From positions 1 through 52,384 of the forward strand of contig CACYPH010000013.1 in NCBI GenBank assembly GCA_902776185.1: 52,384 nt of DNA. The letters run 5' to 3'. A program made the translations under genes and the position numbers. The notes under the pieces are model-generated. The model was given only the letters and a program-made list of their open reading frames with translations. It was not told the origin of the DNA and searched no databases. Source of the DNA: an uncultured Ruminococcus sp. (GTDB lineage: Bacteria > Bacillota > Clostridia > Oscillospirales > Acutalibacteraceae). Shown piece after piece: positions 16,544 through 33,435 of this stretch. Every line of letters begins with the position of its first letter. The first letter of the stretch is position 1.

Positions 16544-19534
16544 TTATTTTTTCCATCTGAAAATGCTGACAAATTCCGTAAAGAAATTCTTTTTGTCGGA
16601 AATCTTCTTTTTGATCTCTCCGATCGTGACGTCAGCCTGAGAGTTATGGGTGACCATCGCCTGTGCCAGTCTGACATAGATGCTCTTGAATTTCTCGATG
16701 CTCTCTTCGTCATACAGGCTCGCGGCGAAGTCAATCATCACCTGTAAGCCGTCGGCGCCGTCGAGTATCTCGATATCGAGGATCGTCTGGGACGCCGCCT
16801 GATTCTGGCGCACATCGACCGGCTGGATGTCAAAGCCCTCGAGACCGCCCATATCGCGGATATCCTGCTGATAGAGCAGATATGCCGCCTCGCCGCTGCC
16901 GACCTGGTTGACCGAGTCGACATAGGGATAACAGCTGTGCTCGATACTCTTCTGTACCTGTTCATGGACGTCGGCAAAGACGTTGCGCAGGGTGTCGCTG
17001 TCCTTGAAACGGATACCGATCGGCAGATCGCGGAACATCAAGCCCACGGAGCTGAGCATCTGCAAATCCTCTCTGCCGTTGTAGATCCACGACAGCTTGA
17101 TATCGGAGGCGTTGTTGTAGACCGAGATCGCCAGCGCCGCCACGGTGATAAAGAACTCGTTGCGGCTGATCTTGTAGGCGCGTTCGACCGCCTTCATCTG
17201 TGCCTGCTCGATGTCCAGCTCTCCGAACAGCTCGCCCATCTTGTTTTCGCGGGACTCGTGGTCGGTCTTGGGATAGCAGGACCAGTCGATATTGTCGTAG
17301 CGGTCCTCGAAGTATTTTTTGCTCTCTTCATAGAACGCGGTATTCACCGCATCCTCACGCTGCTTGAGCATGAGATAGTAGTAGTCCTTGTCCATCTCCA
17401 TGCCCATGTACGCCTTGCCGACGTCGCCGAGGAAAACCTTCAGCGAGGTGCCGTCGAACAGCGAATGGTGAACGTCAAAGAAGATATAGCCTGCTTTTTC
17501 AGTCTCGAAAACACGGCAGCGGAACAGCTTGCCGCCGACGATCTTGAAGGGATACACCAGCGTATCCTTCACAAATCTCATCTCGAATTCGGACAGCTTC
17601 TCCACGTGGATATCCGTCAGGTTCTCGGGAGTGTATCTCTGTACCAGCTCGCCGTCCTCGTTCCATGCAAAGGTGGTCAGGAGAGCGGGGTGGTTCATGA
17701 TCGCCTTTTTCAGCGCTTCTGCCATCTGCTCCATATTGAAGAGCTCGGTGCTGACCTTCATCATCGAGAACAGGTTGTACATCGTGGAGTTCGGGGTATA
17801 CAGCTGATAGTCGACCATATAAAGCTGTTCGGTCGTCAGCGGATGCTCCTCCTTGAGCGATGCATCGTTCTTTTCGTCGGGGCTTTCACCGTCGTTGTTC
17901 TCGAGTATCTCCTGATACAGCGCGGCGATCTTCGCGGGTGTTCTGCCGCGGAAGACCTCGGAGGTATTCAGACCGGGGAGATCTGCTTCGGTGATCAGCT
18001 CGATGGAGCTGAGCGAATCGCCTCCCATTTCATAGAAGTCGTCATTGATACCGACCTGCGAGAGCTTTAAGACCTTTTCCATCGCGTGACAGATCTTTTC
18101 TTCGATCTCGTTCGTCGGCGCGGCATAGTCGCTCTTGAAGTCGTCTATATTAGGTGCGGGCAGTCCTTTTCGATCGAGCTTGCCGGTCGCCTTGAGGGGT
18201 GCCTTATCGATCTTGATGTAATAGGCGGGGATCATATAGTAGGGCAGACGCTTCAAAAGCTCCGCGCGGAGCGATTCGGAGTCGATCTGCACATCAGCGG
18301 TGTAATAGGCGCAAAGGTAGCTTTTGCCGCCCTCCTCAAAGCCGCGTACTGCCGCCCATTCGATACCGAGCGCCTGCTTGACGGCGGCTTCGATCTCTGC
18401 CGGCTCGATGCGGTTGCCGTTGATCTTGATCATATCGCCCGATCTTCCGAGCAGGACATAATCTCCGTTTGCGTCCTTTTTGGCAAGGTCGCCGGTGTGA
18501 TAGATCCCGTTTACGAACGCCTTTGCGTTCTCCTCAGGCAGGTTGATGTAGCCGCGGACATACGGGTTCTCAAAGCACAGCTCGCCGGTTTCGCCCTCGG
18601 CGACCTCGTTGCCGTCTTCGCCGAGAAGGATGATCTTCGTGTCGATCTCCGGCTTGCCGATCGGGCAGGTCTCGTAAGAGCGGTCTATCTTAAAAATACC
18701 TACCGCAAAGCCGCTTTCGCTGGCGGCGTATACGTTGATAAGATCTACGTTCTCATTATATACATTGTTCGCGGGTTCAGATCCGACGATCAGTATTCTG
18801 AGGAAAGGTCCGGTCTGATTTCCCAGCTTACGGACATAGGACGGCGTCAGGAAGGTGACGGTGATGCGCTTGGTGATGAAGTATTTTGCGAGCGCGGCGG
18901 GATTCTTGATGGTGGCGTAGGATACGACAAAGGTCTTTCCGCCGAAGATGCTCAGCGCTTTCAGGATAACGATGACCGAAGCGACGAAGTTCATCGGCGC
19001 GAGCAGCGCAAGCCGGTCGGAGCTTTTGAAGGGGGTCTGACCGTCGACCTTGATGGATTCGATCGCGCGGCTGAGGTTGCCGTATTCATGCAGAACGCCC
19101 TTGGGGTTGCCGGTGGTACCGGAGGTATAGATCGCATAGGCGGCGTCGTGATCGCCGTGCGCCGCATAGCCGCTCAGCGGTTCGGTGTGCATGATCTCGT
19201 CCCAGTTATCGGCGCAAAGATCCAGCTTGCAGCCGCAGTCCTCGCGGATGAAGTTGATGCGCTCCGGCGCGTAAGTGTCCTCTACCAGCGCCCATGCCGC
19301 ACCTGCCTTCCATACGCCGAGCATCGCGATGATCGGGAGGATGCCGCGCGGCAGATTGATGAGGACAAAGTCCTCTTTACCGATACCGTTCTGCTTTAAA
19401 TACGCATAGACGCGTCCGGTCATCTCGTCAAACTGCGCATAGGTGATGCCCTTGGTGTGCGTGTCGTCAAACAGGATCGATCCGTTGGGGTTTTCAGCGG
19501 TATACTGCTCCAGCAGTTCTAAAATCTCGGTCAT
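16544..19534 (-). CDS. Single-module nonribosomal peptide synthetase: adenylation, carrier, condensation
   Basis: 996 residues. The adenylation domain (about 1-465) has YAIYTSGTTGNPKGV (133-147), NVYAASESG (267-275), YHTGDL (345-350), GRSGDMIKINGNRIEP (363-378) and ATGKLDRKGLP. The carrier domain follows (about 475-545) with phosphopantetheine Ser507 in GGDSLSS, then a condensation domain (about 563-985) with intact HHSLFDG (689-695). There is no thioesterase or reductase. At the position of the Asp that binds the alpha-amino group (Asp235 in PheA) the segment reads MNFVASV, apparently Val184, so the substrate may not be an alpha-amino acid. Order A-T-C suggests activation of an acyl unit that is passed to a free amine or alcohol. 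It starts one base after the STAS gene and is probably cotranscribed with it. Product unknown. Confidence 0.88.
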   Translation of the reverse strand: MTEILELLEQYTAENPNGSILFDDTHTKGITYAQFDEMTGRVYAYLKQNGIGKEDFVLINLPRGILPIIAMLGVWKAGAAWALVEDTYAPERINFIREDCGCKLDLCADNWDEIMHTEPLSGYAAHGDHDAAYAIYTSGTTGNPKGVLHEYGNLSRAIESIKVDGQTPFKSSDRLALLAPMNFVASVIVILKALSIFGGKTFVVSYATIKNPAALAKYFITKRITVTFLTPSYVRKLGNQTGPFLRILIVGSEPANNVYNENVDLINVYAASESGFAVGIFKIDRSYETCPIGKPEIDTKIILLGEDGNEVAEGETGELCFENPYVRGYINLPEENAKAFVNGIYHTGDLAKKDANGDYVLLGRSGDMIKINGNRIEPAEIEAAVKQALGIEWAAVRGFEEGGKSYLCAYYTADVQIDSESLRAELLKRLPYYMIPAYYIKIDKAPLKATGKLDRKGLPAPNIDDFKSDYAAPTNEIEEKICHAMEKVLKLSQVGINDDFYEMGGDSLSSIELITEADLPGLNTSEVFRGRTPAKIAALYQEILENNDGESPDEKNDASLKEEHPLTTEQLYMVDYQLYTPNSTMYNLFSMMKVSTELFNMEQMAEALKKAIMNHPALLTTFAWNEDGELVQRYTPENLTDIHVEKLSEFEMRFVKDTLVYPFKIVGGKLFRCRVFETEKAGYIFFDVHHSLFDGTSLKVFLGDVGKAYMGMEMDKDYYYLMLKQREDAVNTAFYEESKKYFEDRYDNIDWSCYPKTDHESRENKMGELFGELDIEQAQMKAVERAYKISRNEFFITVAALAISVYNNASDIKLSWIYNGREDLQMLSSVGLMFRDLPIGIRFKDSDTLRNVFADVHEQVQKSIEHSCYPYVDSVNQVGSGEAAYLLYQQDIRDMGGLEGFDIQPVDVRQNQAASQTILDIEILDGADGLQVMIDFAASLYDEESIEKFKSIYVRLAQAMVTHNSQADVTIGEIKKKISDKKNFFTEFVSIFRWKK

Positions 19535-21851: not shown

Positions 21852-22370
21852 TTAATCTCTGGCGGCAAAGCCGCTGAACATGAGGGTGAAGCCCGTTTCG
21901 ATAAAATAGATGCCGACCAAAACGCCGAGAGTGACCGCCATGCGCAGGGGCTCGAAGAACGAGCCGACGCCGACAAGAACTGCGAGGATGCCGAAGATCA
22001 GCTGCAGGATCCATAATCCGCTTCCGAATTTTCTTGTCACCGATACGGCATTGGTGATCGTGACGATACCCATCAGTACGAACCATATCGCTGTCATGAT
22101 CAGCATAACGCCTTCGGCAAAGAGCAGAGATTCGGGAAACGAAAGCATGACGATACCCAGTATTACGCTCAGAATATCAAACACAAAGTTCACGCCGAAT
22201 CGTTTTTCGACAATGGCTTGGATGATGCCGATAATGCCGAAAACAAACATCAGTATCACGACAAAATAACCGGTGTTCATGAAGGTAAGCAGCGGAGTGA
22301 AGATACAGGAAAAGCCTCCGGCAACTAACAGGACACCCAAAATAATGAATAAGACGGTCATAAAAAACAC
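21852..22370 (-). CDS. HdeD/DUF308 family membrane protein
   Basis: 172 residues with six predicted transmembrane helices and short loops, typical of the DUF308/HdeD family (for example VFGIIGIIQAIVEKRFG, WFVLMGIVTITNAV, LQLIFGILAVLVGVGSFF). In enterobacteria HdeD is linked to acid stress; in Firmicutes its role is unknown. It reads away from the regulator genes on the plus strand, and the shared intergenic region carries the palindrome at 22513. Its 3' end lies about 185 bp before the truncated GDPD gene. Confidence 0.82.
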   Translation of the reverse strand: MFFMTVLFIILGVLLVAGGFSCIFTPLLTFMNTGYFVVILMFVFGIIGIIQAIVEKRFGVNFVFDILSVILGIVMLSFPESLLFAEGVMLIMTAIWFVLMGIVTITNAVSVTRKFGSGLWILQLIFGILAVLVGVGSFFEPLRMAVTLGVLVGIYFIETGFTLMFSGFAARD

Positions 22371-22512
22371 CTCACAAAAAATTTATCTGAATCCGAATCC
22401 TGAGGCATAACACAGGACACGGACTGACAGAACGCTGCTGATGATTATTATTTCGAACGAAATAATACATAATCCCACTCTATTTTACTATTTTTATTTG
22501 TATTATCCAATA

Positions 22513-22535
22513 AGATGTTCCATAATGGAACATCT
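22513..22535. promoter_or_regulatory. Palindromic operator, site 1
   Basis: Perfect inverted repeat with 11-bp arms around one central base; the core is TGTTCCATAATGGAACA. The centre is 28 bp upstream of the -35 of the next gene. The same core occurs at 24673 and 30983, each upstream of a gene in this neighbourhood. Confidence 0.75.
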
Positions 22536-22551
22536 AAATTCATAAAAAAAC

Positions 22552-22581
22552 TTGTTTTTGGTTATTGTTTTTGTTTATAAT
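22552..22581 (+). promoter_or_regulatory. Promoter of the two-component regulator operon
   Basis: TTGTTT (22552-22557), an 18-base spacer and TATAAT (22576-22581). The weak -35 next to an upstream palindrome fits an activated promoter. Confidence 0.6.
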
Positions 22582-22640
22582 AATATCAAAATAGCGCAAA
22601 AATAACAAGAGTATAATCAAAAACTACGGAGAATAACAAA

Positions 22641-23240
22641 ATGAGTCAGTTTTTTTCGGATACATTGCGAAAGCTGAGAACTGAAAAAGGACTTTCACAG
22701 CAGATCTTGGCGGATAAGATGTACGTTACCCGTTCCACGGTAGCCCGGTGGGAGACCGGCTACCGTCTGCCGGACGTCGCTATGATATCCCGCCTCGCTG
22801 AGATTTTGAGCGTAGACGTCAATATGCTGCTCTCCGCAGCAGCGCAAAGCGACAAGTGCCCTAACGTCATCATGGTGGATGACAGAAAGCTGATCCTGTT
22901 GGGCGGTTTACCGATACTGGAAGAGGTCATGCCGAACGCGAACGTCATAGGCTTTACCGATGCGGCGGAAGCTGTTGAATTTGCAAAGGCGAACCGTATC
23001 GCGCTTGCCTTTTTAGATATCGAGCTGAGAAATACAAGCGGACTGGATCTGTGCCGCGAGCTGCTCCGGATCAATCCGCGTACCAATGTTGTGTATCTGA
23101 CGGCATACAGCGAGTATGCTCTTGATGCATGGAGTACGGGCGCGATCGGTTTTATGCTCAAGCCTGTCACACCCGAAGGCGTCAGGGAACAGCTCAAAAA
23201 TCTGCGATATCCGTTTTGGACGGGAGGCGAAGGCGCATGA
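22641..23240 (+). CDS. Response regulator with N-terminal XRE helix-turn-helix and C-terminal receiver
   Basis: 199 residues. Residues 5-62 form an XRE/HTH_3 domain (LRTEKGLSQQILADKMYVTR then STVARWETGYRLP). Residues 75-195 form a receiver with acidic pair D80-D81, phospho-acceptor D126 (AFLDIEL), T154 and K174. The receiver resembles those of LytTR regulators (AYSEYALDAWSTGAIGFMLK), but the usual C-terminal LytTR domain is absent; the DNA-binding unit is at the other end and of another fold. The next gene overlaps by four bases and encodes the kinase. A perfect palindrome lies upstream, so autoregulation is likely. GGAG ribosome site 10 bp before ATG. Confidence 0.92.
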   Translation: MSQFFSDTLRKLRTEKGLSQQILADKMYVTRSTVARWETGYRLPDVAMISRLAEILSVDVNMLLSAAAQSDKCPNVIMVDDRKLILLGGLPILEEVMPNANVIGFTDAAEAVEFAKANRIALAFLDIELRNTSGLDLCRELLRINPRTNVVYLTAYSEYALDAWSTGAIGFMLKPVTPEGVREQLKNLRYPFWTGGEGA

Positions 23241-24505
23241 ACGACTGGACCATTGTCGCAGGTTATTCGCTGGGAGGCGCGATGCTGGTAATGATGGCGA
23301 TCGGTATCGCGTTCTCTGCTTTTATGCCTGCGCTCGACCGGTGGAGCAGGCGCTATTTCCTCACGTTCTTTTCGATTCTTTTTCTGTATGCCGTTGTCCT
23401 CTTTTTTGATTTGATCTTCTATGTCGATCCCGATATGGCGGAGCCGCAAAAGGTAGTCATTATTCTGGAATACCTGTTTTTCTCTGTGCTGACGCCGATG
23501 CCGATGCCCTTTCTGCTGCATTCCTGCTCAGAAAGCCTAAAACGCAGCGTTCCGTTACGCGCAGTTATGGCGTTGTGGGGCGTATTCTGCTTCATACTGG
23601 TCGCTGCTCAGTTTACGGACGTCATCTACTACTCTACGCCCGATAATCAGTACTTTCGCGGTCCGCTGTTCGCGCTGCTGATGATTCCGCTGGCGCTGAT
23701 CATGATTCTCAACATACAGGGCTTGATCAAAAGACGCAAAAAGCTCTCCAAAAGGTTTTTTACCGCCCTTCTTATCTATCTGCTGCCCACAGCGATTTTC
23801 ATCATCATGTATATGTTCATCGCCGTTGATGTGCTGGTTTCGTTCTGGATGTTCCTCTGTGCGATGACGATGTTCGGCCTTGTCCTTATGGATAACGTGG
23901 AAAAGTATATGCGGCAGCAGCGCGAAATCGCCAACCAGCGCGCCGGCATCATGGTGCTGCAGATGCGGCCGCACTTCATCTATAACACCATGATGGGGAT
24001 CTACTACCTTTGCGATCAGGATTCCTCAAAGGCAAAGCAGGTAACACTGGACTTCACCACCTACCTGCGCAAGAACTTCGCCGCTATCGCGAGCGAGGAT
24101 ACCATTCCCTTTTCGGCGGAGCTGGAGCATACCCGCGCTTACCTTGCCGTTGAACAGGCGCAGTTTGAGGACAGCCTCTTTGTCAGCTTTGATACGCCGC
24201 ACACGCTGTTTCGCGTGCCGCCGCTGACGCTGCAGCCTATCGTTGAGAACGCCGTCAAGCACGGCATGAGCGCTAGCAGCGATCCGATCCATATCTCTGT
24301 CGTTACCCGACTGACGGATATAGGGAGCGAGATCATCGTCGAGGACGACGGTCCGGGCTTCAATCCGGTCGATGACAACGAGCCGCATATCGCCTTGAAT
24401 AATATCAGACAACGGCTCGAAATGATGTGCAAAGGCACGCTCATGATCACGCCGCGTGAGGGCGGAGGAACAAGGGTGAAGGTTACGATACCTCGTTCCG
24501 AATAA
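23237..24505 (+). CDS. LytS-type sensor histidine kinase
   Basis: 422 residues from ATG 23237, which overlaps the regulator stop (ATGA). An in-frame upstream ATG lies inside the regulator gene and is rejected. Six or seven transmembrane helices fill residues 7-218. The cytoplasmic part has the His_kinase H-box QMRPHFIYNTMM with phospho-His246, the N-box PPLTLQPIVENAVKHG and the G-box VEDDGPGF. The many-helix, loop-poor sensor resembles quorum or antimicrobial-sensing kinases. Partner of the XRE-receiver protein. Confidence 0.92.
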   Translation: MNDWTIVAGYSLGGAMLVMMAIGIAFSAFMPALDRWSRRYFLTFFSILFLYAVVLFFDLIFYVDPDMAEPQKVVIILEYLFFSVLTPMPMPFLLHSCSESLKRSVPLRAVMALWGVFCFILVAAQFTDVIYYSTPDNQYFRGPLFALLMIPLALIMILNIQGLIKRRKKLSKRFFTALLIYLLPTAIFIIMYMFIAVDVLVSFWMFLCAMTMFGLVLMDNVEKYMRQQREIANQRAGIMVLQMRPHFIYNTMMGIYYLCDQDSSKAKQVTLDFTTYLRKNFAAIASEDTIPFSAELEHTRAYLAVEQAQFEDSLFVSFDTPHTLFRVPPLTLQPIVENAVKHGMSASSDPIHISVVTRLTDIGSEIIVEDDGPGFNPVDDNEPHIALNNIRQRLEMMCKGTLMITPREGGGTRVKVTIPRSE

Positions 24506-24568
24506 GAGATTTCGGTATTAATCTGTAGCTTTACCGTTAATATAAAAAATATTAAAAGAGGGGATGTC

Positions 24569-24655
24569 ATGTTCAAATTACTTTTCAAAAACATGAAGGC
24601 AAAGAACTGGGTATCAGTCATTCTTTTTTTTGCTACTGTAACGACTCTATTGTAA
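24569..24655 (+). pseudogene. Remnant N-terminus of a membrane protein, probably an ABC exporter
   Basis: An ATG with a good ribosome site (AAAAGAGGGG) opens a 28-codon frame MFKLLFKNMKAKNWVSVILF... that ends at TAA. The start resembles the first helix of fused ABC exporters (LLKYMKKYW..VLLI type). It lies 63 bp after the kinase gene, where an exporter gene would be expected in such a regulator cassette. The rest is gone: a hairpin and an unrelated promoter follow. It could instead be a real 28-residue membrane peptide; the remnant reading is an inference from the N-terminal pattern. Confidence 0.5.
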
Positions 24656-24664
24656 ACCTACAAT

Positions 24665-24699
24665 CCAAGGGGGTGTTCCATTTTGGAACACCCCCTTGG
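24665..24699. promoter_or_regulatory. Palindromic operator or hairpin, site 2
   Basis: 16-bp perfect arms around TTT; the inner part TGTTCCATTTTGGAACA matches the core of sites 22513 and 30980 with identical spacing. The outer CCAAGGGGG/CCCCCTTGG arms are extra. No U tract follows, so it is a poor intrinsic terminator. It ends 51 bp before the -35 at 24751. Confidence 0.65.
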
Positions 24700-24750
24700 A
24701 ATTTGTGTGAAAATATATTACAATATTAATATATAGTTTATTGAAAGGAC

Positions 24751-24779
24751 TTGACACAGCGATGATGATGGGCTACACT
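24751..24779 (+). promoter_or_regulatory. Promoter upstream of the giant secreted protein
   Basis: TTGACA (24751-24756), 17-base spacer, TACACT (24774-24779). Start near 24786. No better promoter is visible between here and the gene at 25028. Confidence 0.65.
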
Positions 24780-24785
24780 TGCACA

Positions 24786-24899
24786 GCACAGCACTGTATA
24801 GCGGATCACTCCGTTCTGTTTCGTACGCCCTTTTTCAACAGAATAACCCTTATCAACTGACACAGACGTAGTGTATCACTGCGCCTGTGTTTTCTTTTG
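24786..24899 (+). ncRNA. Candidate small RNA or attenuated leader
   Basis: Between the promoter at 24751 and a strong hairpin lie about 75 nt without a start codon in good context. The hairpin has 14 pairs (24860-24873 with 24877-24890, one A-C mismatch, loop TAT) followed by TTTTCTTTT, an intrinsic terminator. The product would be a 110-nt RNA, or a leader that must be read through to express the gene at 25028. No known riboswitch is recognised. Bases 24900-25015 show nothing further. Confidence 0.5.
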
Positions 24900-25027
24900 T
24901 CAACCTTTGTTTTATTTGTTCGGCTTTACGCCAATACCCGGTATAGCACAGTACACGGTCAGCGGGCAGATCCAAATAAAACAGTTTTTCTAAATTCAAA
25001 ATGCAAAATACAAAAGGAGAGAAAATT

Positions 25028-28000
25028 ATGCAGAACAAAAAAATAAGCAGAAAAATAATAAGTCTAGTACTGTCTTTACTGATGATACTGACAGCTATAC
25101 CGGCTATGAGCCTGACGGCGTATGCGGATAATACCGAAACATTGCTTACAACCATTACAGCAACCGGTGTAGGACAGGCAAGTTACAGCAAAGAGAACGT
25201 TGCAACTGTTTCGTTCGATGGTGCAGATTATTATATGGACAACGGCTGGACCGGAATTTCCGGTTCTGTAACCGTCAACGCTGCTGAGGGATATACTATT
25301 ACCAAATGTGTATTCTTTACACCCGACGGCAACTCTACTGACGATGCAGCACCATTTACAATTCGTTTTAGTCGTCTTAGACCGAGAGTAACAAAGGTTG
25401 AGGTGTACGGTTATTCCAATACGTCGGCGGTCAGCACCAGTTATGTTGACGGAAGCGGTACTTCGCAGACCGCGGACGCAACAGAACTTGCAGCGGACAC
25501 TACAAGCTGGACTGACGGTTTGTGGTATATTGCACCTGCAGGCGGTCTTACCATCAGCGGACGTATCACCGTCAACGGTACAGTAAATCTTATTCTTCGT
25601 GACGGCGCGACACTTACAGCAAACGCAGGCATCACAACCACAAATGCAACGCTTAACATCTACGCACAGAGCGCCGGAACGGGCGCACTTACTGCAAAAG
25701 GCAGTACCGGTTGTGCGGGCATAGGCGGCCGTGTCGGTGGCTATGGAAGCAACGGTGGCGCAGGAGGCACAGTTAGTATATTTGGTGGCACTGTTACCGC
25801 GACCGGTGGTACTGCTGCTAATTGCGACGGCGCTGGAGCAGGCATCGGCGGTGGTGGAGCAGGCTTAGGCATGGGCGACACCGGTGGCGCAGGGGGCACA
25901 GTTAGTATATTTGGCGGCACTGTTACCGCGACCGGTGGTACTGCTAATAGTGGCGGTGGTGCTGGAGCAGGCATCGGCGGTGGTGGCAAAGATATGAGAG
26001 GAAGTGATGGAGCAAGCGGCACACTGACCCTCGGCAAAGGCGTAAAGCTGTATAGTGGTACTAATAATTCCGGAACAGTTCTTGATGGAAGTGATAGCAC
26101 CGAACGTTCTTACAATGGCAGCAGACCACAGAAGATGTTTGCTGAGTTTATCTCCGGGGGTTCGGCGGCTAACGACATAATAATAAACAGTGCAGAGCAT
26201 GGTTCTGTTACTGCAAATCCTGCTTCGGCTGCTGCCGGTACAACTGTAACTTTGACTGCACAGCCTGATGAAGGCTGTAAGTTGAAAAATATCAGCGCAT
26301 ACAAAGGAATAGTATCAGATAGCTTTTCTAGCCAATATGATGTGTATGATTATTCTGGTACACATTTTAATCTTAAGGTAGATGAAACATCAGCATACGG
26401 TTGGACAATAGGCTATGGTAAAGATGATCCTGTAGTAAAAGTTACTTCAAAAAGTGATACATCTATAGATAGAGTAGTATTAGAAGCAGATGCTAAGATA
26501 GGTATCAGAGGTACAATTAAAGCCAATGTCGGGACAGTAACAAGAAACGGCAATACCATCACAGTGAGTGGTATAAACAACAAAACAGTTACTATATATT
26601 CTGAAGATTATGCATACAGCTCTATCGAGAGTGCTGAGGTATACGGAAAAACTGCTGATTATGGTGAATTGACGCTTACAGGTACAGACGACCCGAATGT
26701 TTTTACTTTCACAATGCCTGATAGTGCTGTAAGTGTTTCAGCGGAGTTTGAAGTGAGCGTTGACAAAACAGACCTTAATACAGCCATCACAGCAGCCCAA
26801 ACACTGTATGACAGCATTAAGGATAATACGGATTATTCTACTATCGCAAGCACACTTAAAACTGCGATAGACGCTGCAAAAGAAGTTGCAGATAGTGAAA
26901 CTGCAGACCAGGACGCTGTTGATACCGCTAACGGAGCAATTTCAGACGCAACAACAGCAGCAGTAGTTGGAATGATTAACGCTCTTCCTGCAAGCACGGA
27001 GGTTACCACTTCCGACAAAGATAAGATTGAGAAAGTCAGAGCAGCTTATGATAACCTTACCGATGCGCAGAAGGAATCGTTTGATACCGACACTCTTAAG
27101 AAGCTGACCGACGCTGAAACCACATTACAGGACGCTATTGATACCGAGGCAGCGGGTGCTGCAACGAATACTATCAACGCACTTCCTGCAGCAGACGAGG
27201 TAACAACTGCGGACAAAGACGCTATTGAAGCCGCAAGAAAGGCGTATAACGACCTTACCGACGACCAGAAGAAAAAGGTAAGCGACGATACACTTAAGAA
27301 GCTGACCGACGCAGAGGACGCTCTCAAAGCGGCAACCGTAAGCGAGACCATCGGCGCGATTCCCGCGACCGACGAAATCACCCTCGAAGATAAGGATGCT
27401 GTCGAAACAGCCCGCGCCGCTTATGACGCGTTGACCGATGATCAGAAGACTTATGTTGACGAAGATACCGTCAAGAAGCTGACCGACGCCGAGAAGGCGA
27501 TCGAAGACCTCGAAACCGCAAAAGCGGTGACCGATTCGATCAACGATCTGCCCGCAGCCGCTGACGTCACCCTCGAAAACAAGGATGCGGTTGAAGCATC
27601 CCGCGCCGCTTACGACGCGCTGACCGACGATCAGAAGGCTCTTGTATCCGAAGATACCTTAAAGAAGCTGACCGACGCTGAGACCGCTATCGCGAACCTC
27701 GAGGCCGCAAAAGCGGTTTCTGATGAGATCAACGATCTGCCTGCAGCCGCTGACGTCACCCTCGACGACAAGGCTGACGTCGAAGCAGCCCGCGCCGCGT
27801 ATGACGCGCTGACAGACGATCAGAAGGCTCTCGTATCCGAAGATACATTAAAGAAGCTGACCGATGCCGAGAAGAAGATCGCGGATCATGAGGCGGCTAA
27901 AGAAGCCGGTGACACAATCAACGCTCTGCCTAAAAACGTCACCGTCAGTGATATAAAAGAAGTGAAGGCTGCCCGTGAGGCGTACGACGCGCTGACCGAC

Positions 28001-30826
28001 GATCAGAAGGCTTATGTCGATCAGGATACCGTAGACAAGCTGACCGCTGCCGAGAAGAGGATCACCGATCAGCAGGCGGCATTACCCGTCATCAGCAAGA
28101 TCAGCAGACTGCCCAACGATGTAACGCTTCAGGATAAAGGCGATATCTTAGCGGCCCGCGCCGCATACGACGCGCTGACCGACGATCAGAAGCACTGGGT
28201 CAATGTCAGCACATTGAAGAAGCTGACCGACGCCGAGACCGCTATCGCAAATATCGAGGCGGCCGCAGCTGTTACCGATACGATCAACGCGCTGCCTGAG
28301 GATGTCAGCGTAGATGACAAGGATCAGATCGAAGCAGCCCGCGCCGCTTATGACGCACTGACCGACGATCAGAAGGCACTTGTATCCGAAGATACTCTGA
28401 AGAAACTGACCGACGCGGAAGAAAAGCTCGCAGAATCCCAGAGCTTATTTGAAGATTTATCGGCGGCGATGGCTGTCGTATTCAAGATCAGCGAACTGCC
28501 GACCGATGTTACATATAAGGATCGTGACGTCATTGAGAACACTCGCGCCGCTTATGACGCGCTGACCGACGACCAGAAGGCTCTGATAAGCGACGAAGTC
28601 CTTAAGAAACTCACCGACGCGGAAGATGCGCTCGCCGAAACCGAAAAAGCCTCTATCGTAACCGAGGCGATCAACGATCTGCCCGCAGCCGATGATATCA
28701 CTCTCGACGATAAGGCTGACGTAGAAGCAGCCCGCGCCGCTTATGACGCACTGACCGATGAGCAGAAGGCTCAGGTCGAAGAAGAAACCTTAAAGAAGCT
28801 GACCGACGCCGAAGCCGTGATCGCAGACCTCGTGGCTGCAAAAGGCGCTGACGATAAGATCAACGCGCTGCCCGCAGCCGCTGACGTCACCCTCGAAGAT
28901 AAGGATGACGTAGAAGCAGCCCGCGCCGCTTATGACGCACTGACCGACGATCAGAAGGCTCTGGTTGACGAAGATACCGTCAAGAAGCTGACCGACGCCG
29001 AGACCGCTATCGAGAATCTTGAAGCAGCCAAAGCGGCTACAGATAAGATCGACGAGATCCCGGATGACGTCACCCTCGACGACAAAGAAACTGTTGAAGC
29101 CGCAAGAGAGGCTTATGACGCACTGAGTGACGACCAGAAGGCTCTGGTTGACGAAGATACCGTTAAGAAGCTGACCGACGCCGAGACCACTATCGAGAAT
29201 CTCGAGGCTGCCAAAGCGGCTACAGATAAGATCGACGAGATTCCGGATGAGGTCACCCTCAACGACAAAGAAACTGTTGAAGCCGCAAGAGAGGCTTATG
29301 ACGCGCTTAGTGACGACCAGAAGGCTCTGGTTGACGAAGATACCGTCAATAAATTGACCGACGCTGAGACCGCTATCGAGAACCTCGAGGCTGCCAAAGC
29401 GGCTACAGATAAGATCAACGCGATCCCCGCAACCGATGAAATCGCTCTCGATGACAAAGCGGACGTCGAAGCCGCAAGAGAGGCTTATGACGCGCTGACC
29501 GACGACCAGAAGGATCTGGTTGACGAAGATACCGTCAAGAAGCTGACTGACGCCGAGAAGGAAATTGCCGATCTCGAGGCTGCAAAAGCAGTTGCAGACG
29601 AGATCAACGATCTGCCCGCAACCAAGGAAATTACCCTCGACGACAAGGCGGATGTCGAAGCCGCAAGAGAGGCTTATGACGCGCTGACTGACGATCAGAA
29701 GGCGAAAGTTGACAAAGATACCGTTAAGAAGCTGACCGACGCTGAGGAAAGAGAAACTGTATTACAGGCTGCGAGCGAGGTTTCTGCAAAGACAGGCAGC
29801 GACGCAACCTATAACGGCGATGAGATCCGGTTGGTTAACGCTCCGACAACCGAACTGCCGGAAGGCTACACGATGCAGTATGCACTCGGAACAGATCCGA
29901 CTACTGCTCCCGCAGACGATCAGTATGGTTCTGAGATTCCTACAGCCAAGGACGCCGGTACCTACTATGTATGGAGCAAGGTCGCGGGCGACGATGAGCA
30001 TACCGGCACCGAAGCCGAGTGCAAGACCGTCAACCTCGCAAAGGCGAAACTGACCGTTACCGCAAAGAACCAGTATGTCGCTTACGGATCAGCCGTCGAT
30101 CAGAGCAAGTATACCGTACAGGGGCTTGTTGACGGCGACAAAATCAGCGTCAAACTCCATTACAGTATCTCTGCAAACAAGATCAGACCCGAGATCGTTG
30201 ACGGAAATCTTGATAACTATGACGTAACGTATGTTAACGGCGTATATGGATTCTACGGCTCTCCCATCGCAAGAGTTGCGATCAGCGGCTCCAATTACAA
30301 AGTAGCATGGACTGCGGTCAAGAACGCTGACGGTTATGACGTCTATGCAGGCTACACCGGAACGGGCAGTTATCCGCTCGTCACTTCCGCAAAGTCCGGT
30401 GATACATCTTACGTCATTTCCAAAATCAACGGCAAAACGATCGACGCTTCTAAGAACGTATTCATTTACGTCGTGGCTTACAAGATGGTAGACGGCAAAA
30501 AGGTCACCCTCGTAAGAAGCGCGTCCATCCGTTCCGTTGCTATCAATAACACGAAGTACACCAACGCGTCGAAGATCACCGCTGCCCAGACTGCTTATAC
30601 ACTGTCTGTAGGCAGAAAGGCGACCATCAAGCCGACTGTGAAACTCGTAAATTCGGGCAAGCAGCAATTGAAGGGACAGATCGCAGTTCGTTATGAATCC
30701 TGCAATAAGAATATTGCTAAGGTCGATGCGAACGGTGTGATCACCGCAGTCGGTAAGGGTACTTGCAACCTCTACGCTTTCACACAGAATGGTATGAGAG
30801 TGAAGATCGTAGTGACCGTAAAATAA
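25028..30826 (+). CDS. Giant secreted repeat protein (adhesin-like)
   Basis: 1,932 residues from ATG 25028 (AAAGGAGAG ribosome site; an ATG at 25001 precedes it). The signal peptide is residues 1-33, ending SLTAYAD. Then come a beta-rich domain (about 40-220), a Gly-rich region (224-331) with two near-identical 43-residue units around GGTVSIFGGTVTATGGTA, a Gly-Ser-Val bacterial repeat (AEHGSVTANPASAAAGTTVT), a FIVAR-like helical domain (about 578-644), 15 helical repeats (645-1580), an MBG-like domain (about 1586-1755), an Fn3-like domain and a C-terminal Big_2-like domain. It has no LPXTG, SLH or dockerin, so its attachment is unclear. Codon use is AT-richer in the N-terminal third than in the repeats. 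Probably a surface or matrix protein for binding; the ligand is unknown. Confidence 0.85.
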   Translation: MQNKKISRKIISLVLSLLMILTAIPAMSLTAYADNTETLLTTITATGVGQASYSKENVATVSFDGADYYMDNGWTGISGSVTVNAAEGYTITKCVFFTPDGNSTDDAAPFTIRFSRLRPRVTKVEVYGYSNTSAVSTSYVDGSGTSQTADATELAADTTSWTDGLWYIAPAGGLTISGRITVNGTVNLILRDGATLTANAGITTTNATLNIYAQSAGTGALTAKGSTGCAGIGGRVGGYGSNGGAGGTVSIFGGTVTATGGTAANCDGAGAGIGGGGAGLGMGDTGGAGGTVSIFGGTVTATGGTANSGGGAGAGIGGGGKDMRGSDGASGTLTLGKGVKLYSGTNNSGTVLDGSDSTERSYNGSRPQKMFAEFISGGSAANDIIINSAEHGSVTANPASAAAGTTVTLTAQPDEGCKLKNISAYKGIVSDSFSSQYDVYDYSGTHFNLKVDETSAYGWTIGYGKDDPVVKVTSKSDTSIDRVVLEADAKIGIRGTIKANVGTVTRNGNTITVSGINNKTVTIYSEDYAYSSIESAEVYGKTADYGELTLTGTDDPNVFTFTMPDSAVSVSAEFEVSVDKTDLNTAITAAQTLYDSIKDNTDYSTIASTLKTAIDAAKEVADSETADQDAVDTANGAISDATTAAVVGMINALPASTEVTTSDKDKIEKVRAAYDNLTDAQKESFDTDTLKKLTDAETTLQDAIDTEAAGAATNTINALPAADEVTTADKDAIEAARKAYNDLTDDQKKKVSDDTLKKLTDAEDALKAATVSETIGAIPATDEITLEDKDAVETARAAYDALTDDQKTYVDEDTVKKLTDAEKAIEDLETAKAVTDSINDLPAAADVTLENKDAVEASRAAYDALTDDQKALVSEDTLKKLTDAETAIANLEAAKAVSDEINDLPAAADVTLDDKADVEAARAAYDALTDDQKALVSEDTLKKLTDAEKKIADHEAAKEAGDTINALPKNVTVSDIKEVKAAREAYDALTDDQKAYVDQDTVDKLTAAEKRITDQQAALPVISKISRLPNDVTLQDKGDILAARAAYDALTDDQKHWVNVSTLKKLTDAETAIANIEAAAAVTDTINALPEDVSVDDKDQIEAARAAYDALTDDQKALVSEDTLKKLTDAEEKLAESQSLFEDLSAAMAVVFKISELPTDVTYKDRDVIENTRAAYDALTDDQKALISDEVLKKLTDAEDALAETEKASIVTEAINDLPAADDITLDDKADVEAARAAYDALTDEQKAQVEEETLKKLTDAEAVIADLVAAKGADDKINALPAAADVTLEDKDDVEAARAAYDALTDDQKALVDEDTVKKLTDAETAIENLEAAKAATDKIDEIPDDVTLDDKETVEAAREAYDALSDDQKALVDEDTVKKLTDAETTIENLEAAKAATDKIDEIPDEVTLNDKETVEAAREAYDALSDDQKALVDEDTVNKLTDAETAIENLEAAKAATDKINAIPATDEIALDDKADVEAAREAYDALTDDQKDLVDEDTVKKLTDAEKEIADLEAAKAVADEINDLPATKEITLDDKADVEAAREAYDALTDDQKAKVDKDTVKKLTDAEERETVLQAASEVSAKTGSDATYNGDEIRLVNAPTTELPEGYTMQYALGTDPTTAPADDQYGSEIPTAKDAGTYYVWSKVAGDDEHTGTEAECKTVNLAKAKLTVTAKNQYVAYGSAVDQSKYTVQGLVDGDKISVKLHYSISANKIRPEIVDGNLDNYDVTYVNGVYGFYGSPIARVAISGSNYKVAWTAVKNADGYDVYAGYTGTGSYPLVTSAKSGDTSYVISKINGKTIDASKNVFIYVVAYKMVDGKKVTLVRSASIRSVAINNTKYTNASKITAAQTAYTLSVGRKATIKPTVKLVNSGKQQLKGQIAVRYESCNKNIAKVDANGVITAVGKGTCNLYAFTQNGMRVKIVVTVK
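26964..29770 (+). repeat. Fifteen in-frame tandem repeats of about 186 bp
   Basis: Each unit encodes about 62 residues around EAARAAYDALTDDQKALV followed by LKKLTDAE and a helical spacer. I count 15 units. Units 12 and 13 are almost identical in DNA (recent duplication), whereas 6, 7 and 9 are the most divergent. The motif is common in Firmicute surface proteins but usually in few copies. Prone to copy-number change by recombination. Confidence 0.9.
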
Positions 30827-30882
30827 ACACCCGACCGCAAGAGCCGAAAGGCTTGATGCATAGAATTACATAGAAATGTATA

Positions 30883-30917
30883 AGTGGGACTGTCGCGTTC
30901 AGCGCGGCAGTCCCACT
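30883..30917 (+). terminator. Hairpin after the giant protein gene
   Basis: AGTGGGACTG pairs with CAGTCCCACT, with additional GC pairs nearer the loop. No clear U run follows, so it may be a transcript-end stabiliser rather than a full terminator. The rest of 30827-31149 holds the operator and promoter described separately. Confidence 0.5.
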
Positions 30918-30979
30918 GCTGTTATGATAAGCATTTTGCTGATATCTATGTAAGCTTATCCCTTATCAAATATACGATA

Positions 30980-31000
30980 GATGTTCCATAATGGAACATC
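30980..31000. promoter_or_regulatory. Palindromic operator, site 3
   Basis: 10-bp perfect arms around one A; the core is identical to site 22513 (TGTTCCATAATGGAACA). Both sites are followed within about 20 bp by CATAAAAAAAC and then a -35 element, so the promoter layout is conserved as well as the palindrome. Confidence 0.75.
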
Positions 31001-31023
31001 CCCTAAAAAACATAAAAAAACAC

Positions 31024-31052
31024 TTGAGGTATTGTGCATCTTATTGTAAAAT
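31024..31052 (+). promoter_or_regulatory. Promoter of the CotH-dockerin gene
   Basis: TTGAGG (31024-31029), 17-base spacer, TAAAAT (31047-31052). The start would be near 31059, leaving a leader of about 90 nt. Confidence 0.65.
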
Positions 31053-31149
31053 TATATTCAGAGAAAGTATACTTTTGTTCAATAAGCGTGTAAACCGTTC
31101 GCAAATCATTGGTTGTATGTTATCAAACAGGAAGGATGCTCATATCGTC

Positions 31150-32637
31150 ATGAAAAGAACCGTTTCTATATTATTCAGCCTGTATCTGATACTCGGGATG
31201 ATAACAGCGATCCCGGCGTCAGCCTCTGCCGAAACGATCGATTCTGTTCCGCGCATTACGATCACCACCGAAAACGGCAACGGCACTGCTCTTGAAAAAG
31301 CCGACGGCTATGTCAACGCCGAGATCACCGTCACCGACGTCAACGGCGAATCGCTGACCGACAGCGTCCTGTTCAAAGTGCGCGGGCACAGTACCGCGCT
31401 TGCCTTTGTCACGAAGAAGGCGTTTACGTTCAAATTCAGCAAGAAAAAGGACCTCCTCGGCATGGGCGCAGGAAAAAAGTGGGCGCTTCTCGCGAACACC
31501 TTCGATCCCACCCTGCTGAGAAATTACATCGCTTTTGACCTAGCTAAAAGGATGGGGTTAGCGTATACCAGCGAACAGCGGTTTGTGGAGCTGTGGGTCG
31601 ACGGAAGCTTTCGCGGCTGTTATACCCTCATGGAACCGGTGCAGGAGGGTAAGGCTCGCGTAGACATCGACATCGAATCGAACGGCGGCATGAACGACTT
31701 TTTGATCGAGCTGGAGGCTACACGGTCTGAGAGCGACGTCACGTATTTCAAGACCGACGGCATTCGCTTCGCGGTCAGCGAGCCGGAGGAACCGAACGCC
31801 GAGCAGCTTGCCTATATACAGTCCACGATGGACGATATTACGGCGACTGTCAAAACCGGGGATCGCGACGCTATCTCGGCAAAGATCGACATCCCTTCCT
31901 TTACGAAATTTTATCTGCTCAACGAGCTTTATAAAACGGTAGACTTCAATTTCAGCTCCGTGTTCTTTTATTATAAGGACGGCGTGCTTTATGCCGGACC
32001 CGCATGGGACTATGATCTCGCCGCGGGCAACAGTAATGCCGCCTATTCTGCCAACGCGGCGGCATGCGCTGCATCTGACGGACTATCTGCGGCGAACTGT
32101 CATCTGTATCGATATCTGTGTTCCTGCGATTGGTTCAATGAAGAGGTACACAAAGCCTTCCGCTTGTATTATGACGATTTTGCGGATCTGGCGGCAGAGG
32201 GCGGTATGATCGACCGTCTGCTGGATGAATACCGACCTCTTTTTGATCGCAACTATACCGACGCCGGCTGGAACGTCGGCAAGTGGTGGGTAAATGTGCA
32301 GAAAAAACCTCTATCCACCTATGACGAGAACGTCGGATATCTTCGCGGCTGGCTTTCTGACCGCGTCGGTTGGCTCAATGAGTATTACCCGCCGATTGAC
32401 GAGCCGATTGTCGTCTATGTTCGCGGCGACGCTGACGGCGACGGAGCGGTGACGATACTCGACGCGACCGCCATTCAAAGAAAACTCGCCGAGCTGGCGA
32501 CCGCTTCTTTTAACGATGCGGCTGCCGATGTTGACGGTGACGGACTCAACATTATCGATGCAACGAAGATCCAGCGGTATTTGGCTGAGTTCGAAAACAT
32601 TTATCATATCAATGAACCTGTCTCCGAATCACCATAA
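31150..32637 (+). CDS. Secreted CotH-kinase protein with C-terminal dockerin
   Basis: 495 residues from ATG 31150. The open frame extends to 30991 but would run through the operator and promoter; the signal peptide MKRTVSILFSLYLILGMI... with PASASA cleavage fits this start. The CotH domain (about 40-400) has CYTLMEPVQEGKARVDIDIE, FLIELEATRS and FYYKDGVLYAGPAWDYDLAA, the segments that carry the kinase-like active site in this family. Residues about 426-485 are a type I dockerin with two calcium loops (GDADGDGAVTILDATAIQRK and DVDGDGLNIIDATKIQRY). A dockerin implies attachment to a cohesin scaffold encoded elsewhere. CotH proteins phosphorylate proteins in spore coats. The target here is unknown. 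Confidence 0.9.
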   Translation: MKRTVSILFSLYLILGMITAIPASASAETIDSVPRITITTENGNGTALEKADGYVNAEITVTDVNGESLTDSVLFKVRGHSTALAFVTKKAFTFKFSKKKDLLGMGAGKKWALLANTFDPTLLRNYIAFDLAKRMGLAYTSEQRFVELWVDGSFRGCYTLMEPVQEGKARVDIDIESNGGMNDFLIELEATRSESDVTYFKTDGIRFAVSEPEEPNAEQLAYIQSTMDDITATVKTGDRDAISAKIDIPSFTKFYLLNELYKTVDFNFSSVFFYYKDGVLYAGPAWDYDLAAGNSNAAYSANAAACAASDGLSAANCHLYRYLCSCDWFNEEVHKAFRLYYDDFADLAAEGGMIDRLLDEYRPLFDRNYTDAGWNVGKWWVNVQKKPLSTYDENVGYLRGWLSDRVGWLNEYYPPIDEPIVVYVRGDADGDGAVTILDATAIQRKLAELATASFNDAAADVDGDGLNIIDATKIQRYLAEFENIYHINEPVSESP

Positions 32638-32642
32638 AGAAG

Positions 32643-32792
32643 AGGTATATATGGAACAAAACTGTTTTCGTGAATGCCTTTTTGAAGGAATCGGAGGAGA
32701 ACGGGATCGTGTACGATCTTCAGGACGTCAACGAACCGGAGCTTCCGAATATAAATATGATAATCTTTTCTCACAAGAAAAAGGAGAGGTGA
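32643..32792 (+). pseudogene. Possible C-terminal remnant of an unidentified gene
   Basis: Between the CotH gene and the HAD gene a frame without an own start codon encodes about 49 residues including FLKESEENGIVYDLQDVNEP and ends KKKER at TGA, four bases before the next ATG. It reads like protein, but I do not recognise the family. It overlaps the ribosome site AAAGGAGAGG of the HAD gene. It may be the tail left by a deletion, or chance. Confidence 0.3.
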
Positions 32793-32796
32793 CATT

Positions 32797-33435
32797 ATGA
32801 ATGTATATGATTTTGACGGGACGATTTTCCCCGGGGATTGCTCGATAGGCTTTGGCTTCTGGTGCATGAGGAGGCATCCTAAAATGTATTTCACTATTTT
32901 ACCGAAAGTGATCCGCAACCTGATTTTGCGAAAGATGGGAAAAATGCCGGAGTATCTGATGCAGCGTAAGATGTTCGGCTATCTGACGCTGATAGATGAC
33001 TTCGATGAACAGATCGAGCGATACTGGGATAAGAACGAGAAGAAGATCGCTCCTTGGTATCTCGCGCAAAAAAGGTCTGACGATCTGATCATCAGCGCGT
33101 CGCCGGACTGCATCATCGGACCTATTGCAAAGAGGCTTGGTGTGAATTTTATGGCTACGGAATTTGACCGTGAGTATGGGGTGTTTCTGAATAACATGAT
33201 GTATGCTAAGGAAAAGGCAAAGTACATCATCGATCAAGGGTTTCCGCTGATCGAGAATTTCTATTCTGATTCTCTTGCCGATACGCCGCTCGCATTGTGT
33301 GCCGAAAAAGCCCATCTGGTAAAGGATAAAGCAAGCACCGTGATCGACTGGCCTGATCTGAACAAAGAGACGATGAGTAAGGTCAAAGAGAAAATCGACA
33401 CGGGATGGAACATCCATCTAAAAGAGGAAGAGTAA
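32797..33435 (+). CDS. HAD-superfamily (IB-type) phosphatase
   Basis: 212 residues, cytoplasmic. Motif I is at the extreme N-terminus (VYDFDGTIFPGD). Motif II Ser is in DDLIISASPDCIIG. Motif III/IV is in FYSDSLADTPL. The helical cap between motif I and II (about 15-90) is of the IB subclass (phosphoserine phosphatase-like). Substrate unknown. The next gene starts directly after the stop codon, so the pair is cotranscribed with the sugar kinase. Ribosome site AAGGAGAGG, 7 bp before ATG. Confidence 0.85.
   Translation: MNVYDFDGTIFPGDCSIGFGFWCMRRHPKMYFTILPKVIRNLILRKMGKMPEYLMQRKMFGYLTLIDDFDEQIERYWDKNEKKIAPWYLAQKRSDDLIISASPDCIIGPIAKRLGVNFMATEFDREYGVFLNNMMYAKEKAKYIIDQGFPLIENFYSDSLADTPLALCAEKAHLVKDKASTVIDWPDLNKETMSKVKEKIDTGWNIHLKEEE

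Follow-up and report, generated by a model that had tools for sequence, protein, structure and literature searches.

The palindrome TGTTCCA-N3-TGGAACA is very probably the operator of a local two-component system, read by the XRE domain of its response regulator, and would serve to activate the genes of the locus. It occurs in three exact copies (22516–22532, 24674–24690 and 30982–30998) in the window, by which we mean the whole analysed stretch of 52,384 nucleotides from an uncultured Ruminococcus sp. The first-pass annotation had placed the centres at 22524, 24682 and 30990, with identical 7-bp half-sites and a 3-bp spacing, which is correct at all three sites. We computed the identity of the sites, their confinement, conservation, co-variation with the regulator, promoter geometry and co-occurrence with the regulator; from these we infer binding, dimerisation, phosphorylation and activation.

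Operator 1 (TGTTCCATAATGGAACA, 22516–22532, arms of 10 bp) lies between divergent genes. On its minus-strand side is the gene of a DUF308 (HdeD-like) membrane protein of 169 residues (21852–22361), a putative divergent target, whose predicted promoter (TTGGAT-17 nt-TAAAAT, 22482–22510, minus strand) is 5 nt from the operator. On the plus strand, the predicted promoter of the regulator-kinase operon (TTGTTT-18 nt-TATAAT, 22552–22581) lies 19 nt downstream, in a layout class that recurs in relatives. The response regulator (22641–23240, plus strand) has an N-terminal XRE helix-turn-helix (HTH_3, residues 9–60) and a C-terminal receiver (76–185); the sensor histidine kinase (PF06580 and HATPase_c, 23237–24505, plus strand) overlaps its stop codon. 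An ABC exporter gene (MsbA-like), which is intact, encodes 585 residues and is placed after the kinase in some relatives, has been cut down in the window to a remnant of 28 codons with the start MFKLLFKNMKAKNWVSVI (24569–24655, plus strand), just before operator 2.

Operator 2 (TGTTCCATTTTGGAACA, 24674–24690) forms the centre of a longer perfect palindrome (24664–24700), whose arms measure 17 bp. A predicted promoter (TTGGAA-17 nt-TACAAT, 24696–24724, plus strand) lies 5 nt downstream, ahead of the gene for a giant repeat protein of 1932 residues (25028–30826, plus strand) with a signal-like N-terminus, repeats, and InlB B-repeat-like and weak MBG matches. Both flanks of operator 2 read CCCCCTTGG outward, giving a 5-nt gap and a -35 box on each side, with a matching -10 box at 17 nt on the plus side only. 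Operator 3 (TGTTCCATAATGGAACA, 30982–30998, arms of 9 bp) is 25 nt upstream of the predicted promoter (TTGAGG-17 nt-TAAAAT, 31024–31052, plus strand) of the CotH-dockerin protein, which has 495 residues from its likely start at 31150 (31150–32637, plus strand); the start of the longest open reading frame, at 30991, would be within operator 3. The sites do precede the regulator, the giant protein and the CotH-dockerin gene, as annotated, but site 1 additionally faces the divergent DUF308 gene. Elsewhere in the window, an NRPS-like gene (16544–19534, minus strand) encodes adenylation, carrier and condensation domains; in relatives, genes of AMP-binding enzymes are found repeatedly behind operators.

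The arms of the three sites differ in length, so that just 7 bp are common to all. It is the exactness of the sites that is unusual and not the number of weak matches, since 6 of 100 shuffles reached the four matches found in the window with up to three mismatches (shuffle mean 1.49). In the organism's own genome (G000; 1,883,090 bases in 74 contigs, 86% complete), a search allowing one mismatch returned only the three window sites, and the backwards-read control returned none. The looser pattern GTTCCA-N3-TGGAAC with one mismatch gave two extra matches (C2:38836 and C25:5256), both, as judged by eye, inside apparent coding sequence. The scatter over the genome that the first-pass annotation had named as a refuting outcome is therefore not seen; exact copies occur only at this locus. 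Across 161 genomes of the genus we found 39 exact sites in 22 genomes, the backwards control giving none in any genome; among these sites, G046:C47 and C175 look like one place on two contigs, and those in G113:C120, G117 and G132 have no called gene on either side. Chance repetition of the palindrome is rejected by its confinement in the own genome and by the counts in the 161 genomes against the backwards control.

The regulator matches PF01381 (HTH_3, E 9e-14) and PF00072 (receiver). Receiver residues D80, D81, D126, T154 and K174 are invariant in two alignments of 17 and 27 homologues, and the receiver therefore looks functional as judged from its sequence. The pair has the marks of a two-component system, namely a receiver with the acceptor aspartate and the conserved acid, threonine and lysine, and a kinase gene alongside. 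Of the 106 homologous loci with enough DNA, 104 have a kinase gene after the regulator, and in 12 of 72 loci an ABC exporter of one family is encoded on its downstream side, within 3 kb of the regulator. In the own genome, one regulator match spans both domains and 12 others cover only one. Counting the own genome each time, regulator homologues are present in 52 of 161 genus genomes (E 1e-50) and in 11 of 200 genomes drawn from the family (E 1e-60), and full-length homologues in 2 of 299 drawn from the phylum. Among the 80 listed of 546 confirmed relatives, submitters' names include Ruminococcus, Clostridia and Clostridiales, many are from the ruminant gut and a few are from other groups. One homologous regulator (L170:6001–6594) carries an in-frame stop codon. 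Related kinase genes also occur directly behind an exact operator with no regulator between (L104:7273–8556, L077:2836–4119, L097:2210–2878); PF06580 is confirmed for the first of these only.

A motif fit places a related operator ahead of 95 of 108 homologous regulators, the window's included; run on five shuffled upstream sets, it recovered 10–13 of 108. The motif fit was chosen because a palindrome-only scan missed an asymmetric clade; its reversed-sequence control (93 of 108) is invalid because the mirrored motif is found again, and the shuffled control alone counts. The 7-3-7 palindromes upstream of the regulators fall into several types (TGTTCCA, GTTACC, GTACC/GTGAC, TGTGTCA and others). 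In the R21 regulator clade (L153, L181, L157, L190, L090 and others) the operators are asymmetric, with GGTTCCA on the left and GGTGACA or TGTGACA on the right, and some genomes show a single such regulator. Counting against the operator reading, 13 of the 108 regulators have no above-threshold site, among them L075, which has a clear palindrome by eye. Two features of an XRE-family regulator, an HTH_3 domain with a recognition helix and a conserved, gene-associated palindromic operator, are present.

The operators also recur within the loci of their own regulators: across 95 loci (872,067 bp), we found 16 additional sites that match the locus' own variant when one mismatch in 14 is allowed, two of them in the window, whereas foreign variants gave 0.38. 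For two variant operators from other clades, matches are present in 4 and 7 of the 161 genus genomes, directly upstream of a regulator in 3 of the 4 and 4 of the 7, and in neither case in the own genome; single matches may be due to chance, since each pattern gave one control match in a genus genome. The exact palindrome is present in 15 of 23 genomes with a close regulator (a full-length match of at least 75% identity among the 20 or fewer candidates scored per genome) against 7 of 138 others (p 1.2e-10 by Fisher's test, counting the own genome and making no correction for kinship). G086, which has a 75% match of 151 residues at a contig end, was left out of the 15 of 23. The 8 close-regulator genomes without the exact palindrome and the 7 that have it without a close regulator count against the association; genomes are incomplete, and near-variants exist.

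The position of the operators relative to predicted promoters bears on what the bound regulator would do. At the 39 exact sites, a promoter-like hexamer pair was found on 47 of 78 sides. The gap between operator and -35 box in these 47 calls was 5 nt in 16, 18–21 nt in 15 and 24–26 nt in 6; that the other 10 lie at different gaps counts against a set spacing. By annotation, the genes behind the 16 promoters at a gap of 5 come from nine families, and in one place no gene is called, so that this spacing does not result from common descent alone. At the 95 regulator operators, for which shuffles served as the control, 64 have a TTG at exactly 5 nt on the divergent side, where 58 of 63 promoter calls show this gap; the shuffles yielded 9 calls there, of which none had a gap of 5. 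Towards the regulator there were 86 promoter calls against 18 in shuffles, with gaps of 17–21 nt in 58, 25–26 nt in 7 and 30–32 nt in 15.

In the window, the divergent DUF308 side of site 1 shows the commonest geometry, as does site 2. From the predicted promoters, transcripts would start near 24731 and 31059 on the plus strand and near 22475 on the minus strand. The first-pass annotation had noted a shared CATAAAAAAAC element after sites 1 and 3, which is indeed present at both; their similar distance to a weak -35 box holds roughly, but the actual gaps differ (19 and 25 nt); site 3 being spaced unlike site 1 counts against a common layout. The -35 boxes in the window are weak matches and the -10 boxes better ones. 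Set operator distances upstream of weak -35 boxes suggest activation, and the proposed layout of an activator site gains support from this spacing.

It is unlikely that the regulator binds the palindrome but represses, the unphosphorylated protein blocking the promoters until phosphorylation releases it, or that it works both ways. Many XRE proteins are repressors. Against repression, there is no overlap between the operators and the predicted core promoters; the operators stand ahead of the -35 boxes and in most cases at one of a few set gaps. The weakness of the -35 boxes next to better -10 boxes in the window also speaks against it. A dual role has a precedent in the XRE-type response regulator DigR, whose sites are located in activated as well as in repressed promoters (PMC3509222).

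In a pairwise regression in which overall divergence was modelled, positions 31, 21, 32 and 35 ranked first to fourth of 186 in tracking operator differences, and 6 of the top 10 positions fell into residues 20–39 (nominal hypergeometric p 4e-5); since the pairs are non-independent, t values and nominal p can be used only to rank the positions. For five segments of neighbouring DNA, this regression placed 0, 2, 0, 1 and 0 of the top ten in this range. Some noise stems from sites that are mis-registered or reversed (L178 versus L171). An AlphaFold2 model of the regulator (mean pLDDT 86, pTM 0.63) has helix 2 at residues 20–27 and helix 3 at 31–39, from which the four positions are predicted to be helix-turn-helix residues. 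In the pair L143/L164, whose receivers differ by 7%, the half-sites are GTTACC and TGTTCC and the changes include K31R, A32S and S35V. Natural variants of the TGTTCCA type have R31, S32 and A or V at 35, those of the GTTACC type K31, A32 and S35. In a Mantel matrix test, in contrast, the XRE domain and the receiver were about equally good correlates of operator distance (partial correlations 0.233 and 0.228), which counts against this reading. Taken together, the co-variation with positions 31, 21, 32 and 35 lends indirect support to a reading of the operator by the recognition helix.

The same results make it very unlikely that another DNA-binding protein reads the palindrome and simply has the local regulator among its targets, as could be supposed from the fact that the regulator gene is itself preceded by a site, like any target. 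The operator tracks helices 2 and 3 of the regulator above its other positions, and operator variants follow regulator variants even among paralogues within one genome, of which there are up to four (G082). Five results support the first-pass prediction of a palindrome read by the local XRE domain: the operators at 95 of 108 regulators, the co-variation with helices 2 and 3, the own-variant sites, the co-occurrence and the confinement in the own genome.

That the palindrome is no operator but a transcript hairpin, a terminator or a dispersed mobile repeat is highly improbable: site 2 does fold strongly (−36 kcal/mol, z −6.4) and fits a loose terminator pattern, but sites 1 and 3 have predicted promoters on their downstream side, there are three copies only in the genome, and the distances to the -35 boxes are set across loci. 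A terminator at site 2 was rejected for its poor T-run, despite the long hairpin, and a search of 22000–32800 gave no Rfam match.

The regulon proposed by the first-pass annotation consisted of surface proteins. The sites at the giant repeat and CotH-dockerin genes are real, but relatives add membrane, export and signalling genes. Behind the 39 exact sites we counted 13 regulators of this type, 7 DUF308 genes and 11 secreted or surface genes, where one site may serve two sides and the secreted genes were judged by eye from their N-terminus or Pfam matches. The secreted and surface genes include β-helix and leucine-rich-repeat proteins; the others comprise an MsbA-like ABC exporter, a GGDEF-EAL protein, SpoIIE, lone kinases and AMP-binding enzymes. 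One gene behind an exact operator (L079:1–3585, minus strand) encodes a leucine-rich-repeat protein of the BspA type that has a signal-like N-terminus and contains a ubiquitin-family domain (PF00240, E 9e-20). At the 95 regulator loci, a gene divergent to the regulator was called in 76, belonging to a membrane GGDEF-type family in 17, to DUF308 in 7 and, by eye, to secreted proteins in 17.

Relatives also shed light on the history of the locus. In G042, the region syntenic with the window contains DUF308, operator and promoter, and the ABC exporter; the regulator pair is absent there and lies on another contig with its own operator. This split arrangement suggests action in trans. When this pair is aligned to the window (L092:6030–8003 against 22516–24492), the first aligned base is that of the palindrome and the last lies close to the stop codon of the kinase, limits which suggest that palindrome, regulator and kinase may have moved as one cassette.

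In the scheme we favour, the histidine kinase (23237–24505) would phosphorylate the receiver of the regulator (22641–23240), and a regulator dimer would bind TGTTCCA-N3-TGGAACA via its N-terminal XRE domains, the half-sites being read by residues 31, 32 and 35 of helix 3 and residue 21 of helix 2. Bound upstream of a weak -35 box, at 5, about 17–21 or about 24–26 nt, the regulator would recruit RNA polymerase. Its regulon here would be one locus, in which operator 1 may control the DUF308 gene and the regulator-kinase operon, operator 2 the giant repeat protein and operator 3 the CotH-dockerin protein. More tentatively, and less probably than not, such palindrome-regulator-kinase cassettes of rumen Ruminococcus-like bacteria might have moved as units and seized envelope genes by placing an operator 5 bp from the -35 box; paralogues with diverged operators and matching helix 2–3 residues might then form insulated parallel channels, a natural DNA-specificity code. 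An anonymous repeat has become a testable regulatory circuit for a giant repeat protein and a dockerin protein in a rumen bacterium. The 95 natural regulator-operator pairs of the inverted XRE-receiver architecture are enough to propose DNA-specificity residues, and the promoter geometry, with 5 bp to the -35 box, is directly testable.

Kinases of the PF06580 family pair in LytS/LytR- or BtsS/BtsR-type systems, and the system in the window has this kinase family in common with them. Regulators of the LytR and BtsR type have a LytTR output domain, whereas the window regulator has an XRE output and a reversed domain order: its output domain is HTH_3, with no LytTR match at E 0.001, and its best NCBIfam match, BtsR, extends over the receiver and is far below the cut-off. 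One-component XRE regulators of the SinR and lambda CI class share the HTH_3 domain and the palindromic operator; they are not known to carry a receiver domain or to have a histidine kinase partner.

We found no description of a regulator with N-terminal XRE and C-terminal receiver in the open-licence literature searched, and the terms 'Xre' and 'HTH_3' are absent from a 2010 survey (PMC3018481). The nearest characterised design that we found is SgmT/DigR of Myxococcus xanthus (PMC3509222). There, DigR has an N-terminal receiver and a C-terminal XRE domain, is encoded by an orphan gene and has a cytoplasmic hybrid kinase as its partner; the site mapped for it is a palindromic sequence of 24 bp, and its regulon includes secreted proteins. 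Compared by these descriptions, the two systems are alike in their XRE-type response regulator, palindromic site, secreted proteins in the regulon and several promoter positions. They differ in that DigR has the opposite domain order, is an orphan and has another site, whereas the regulator in the window has its XRE domain at the N-terminus followed by the receiver, its kinase gene adjacent and its operators mostly at set distances. We therefore regard the system in the window as a predicted two-component system whose regulator has the XRE and receiver domains in inverted order.
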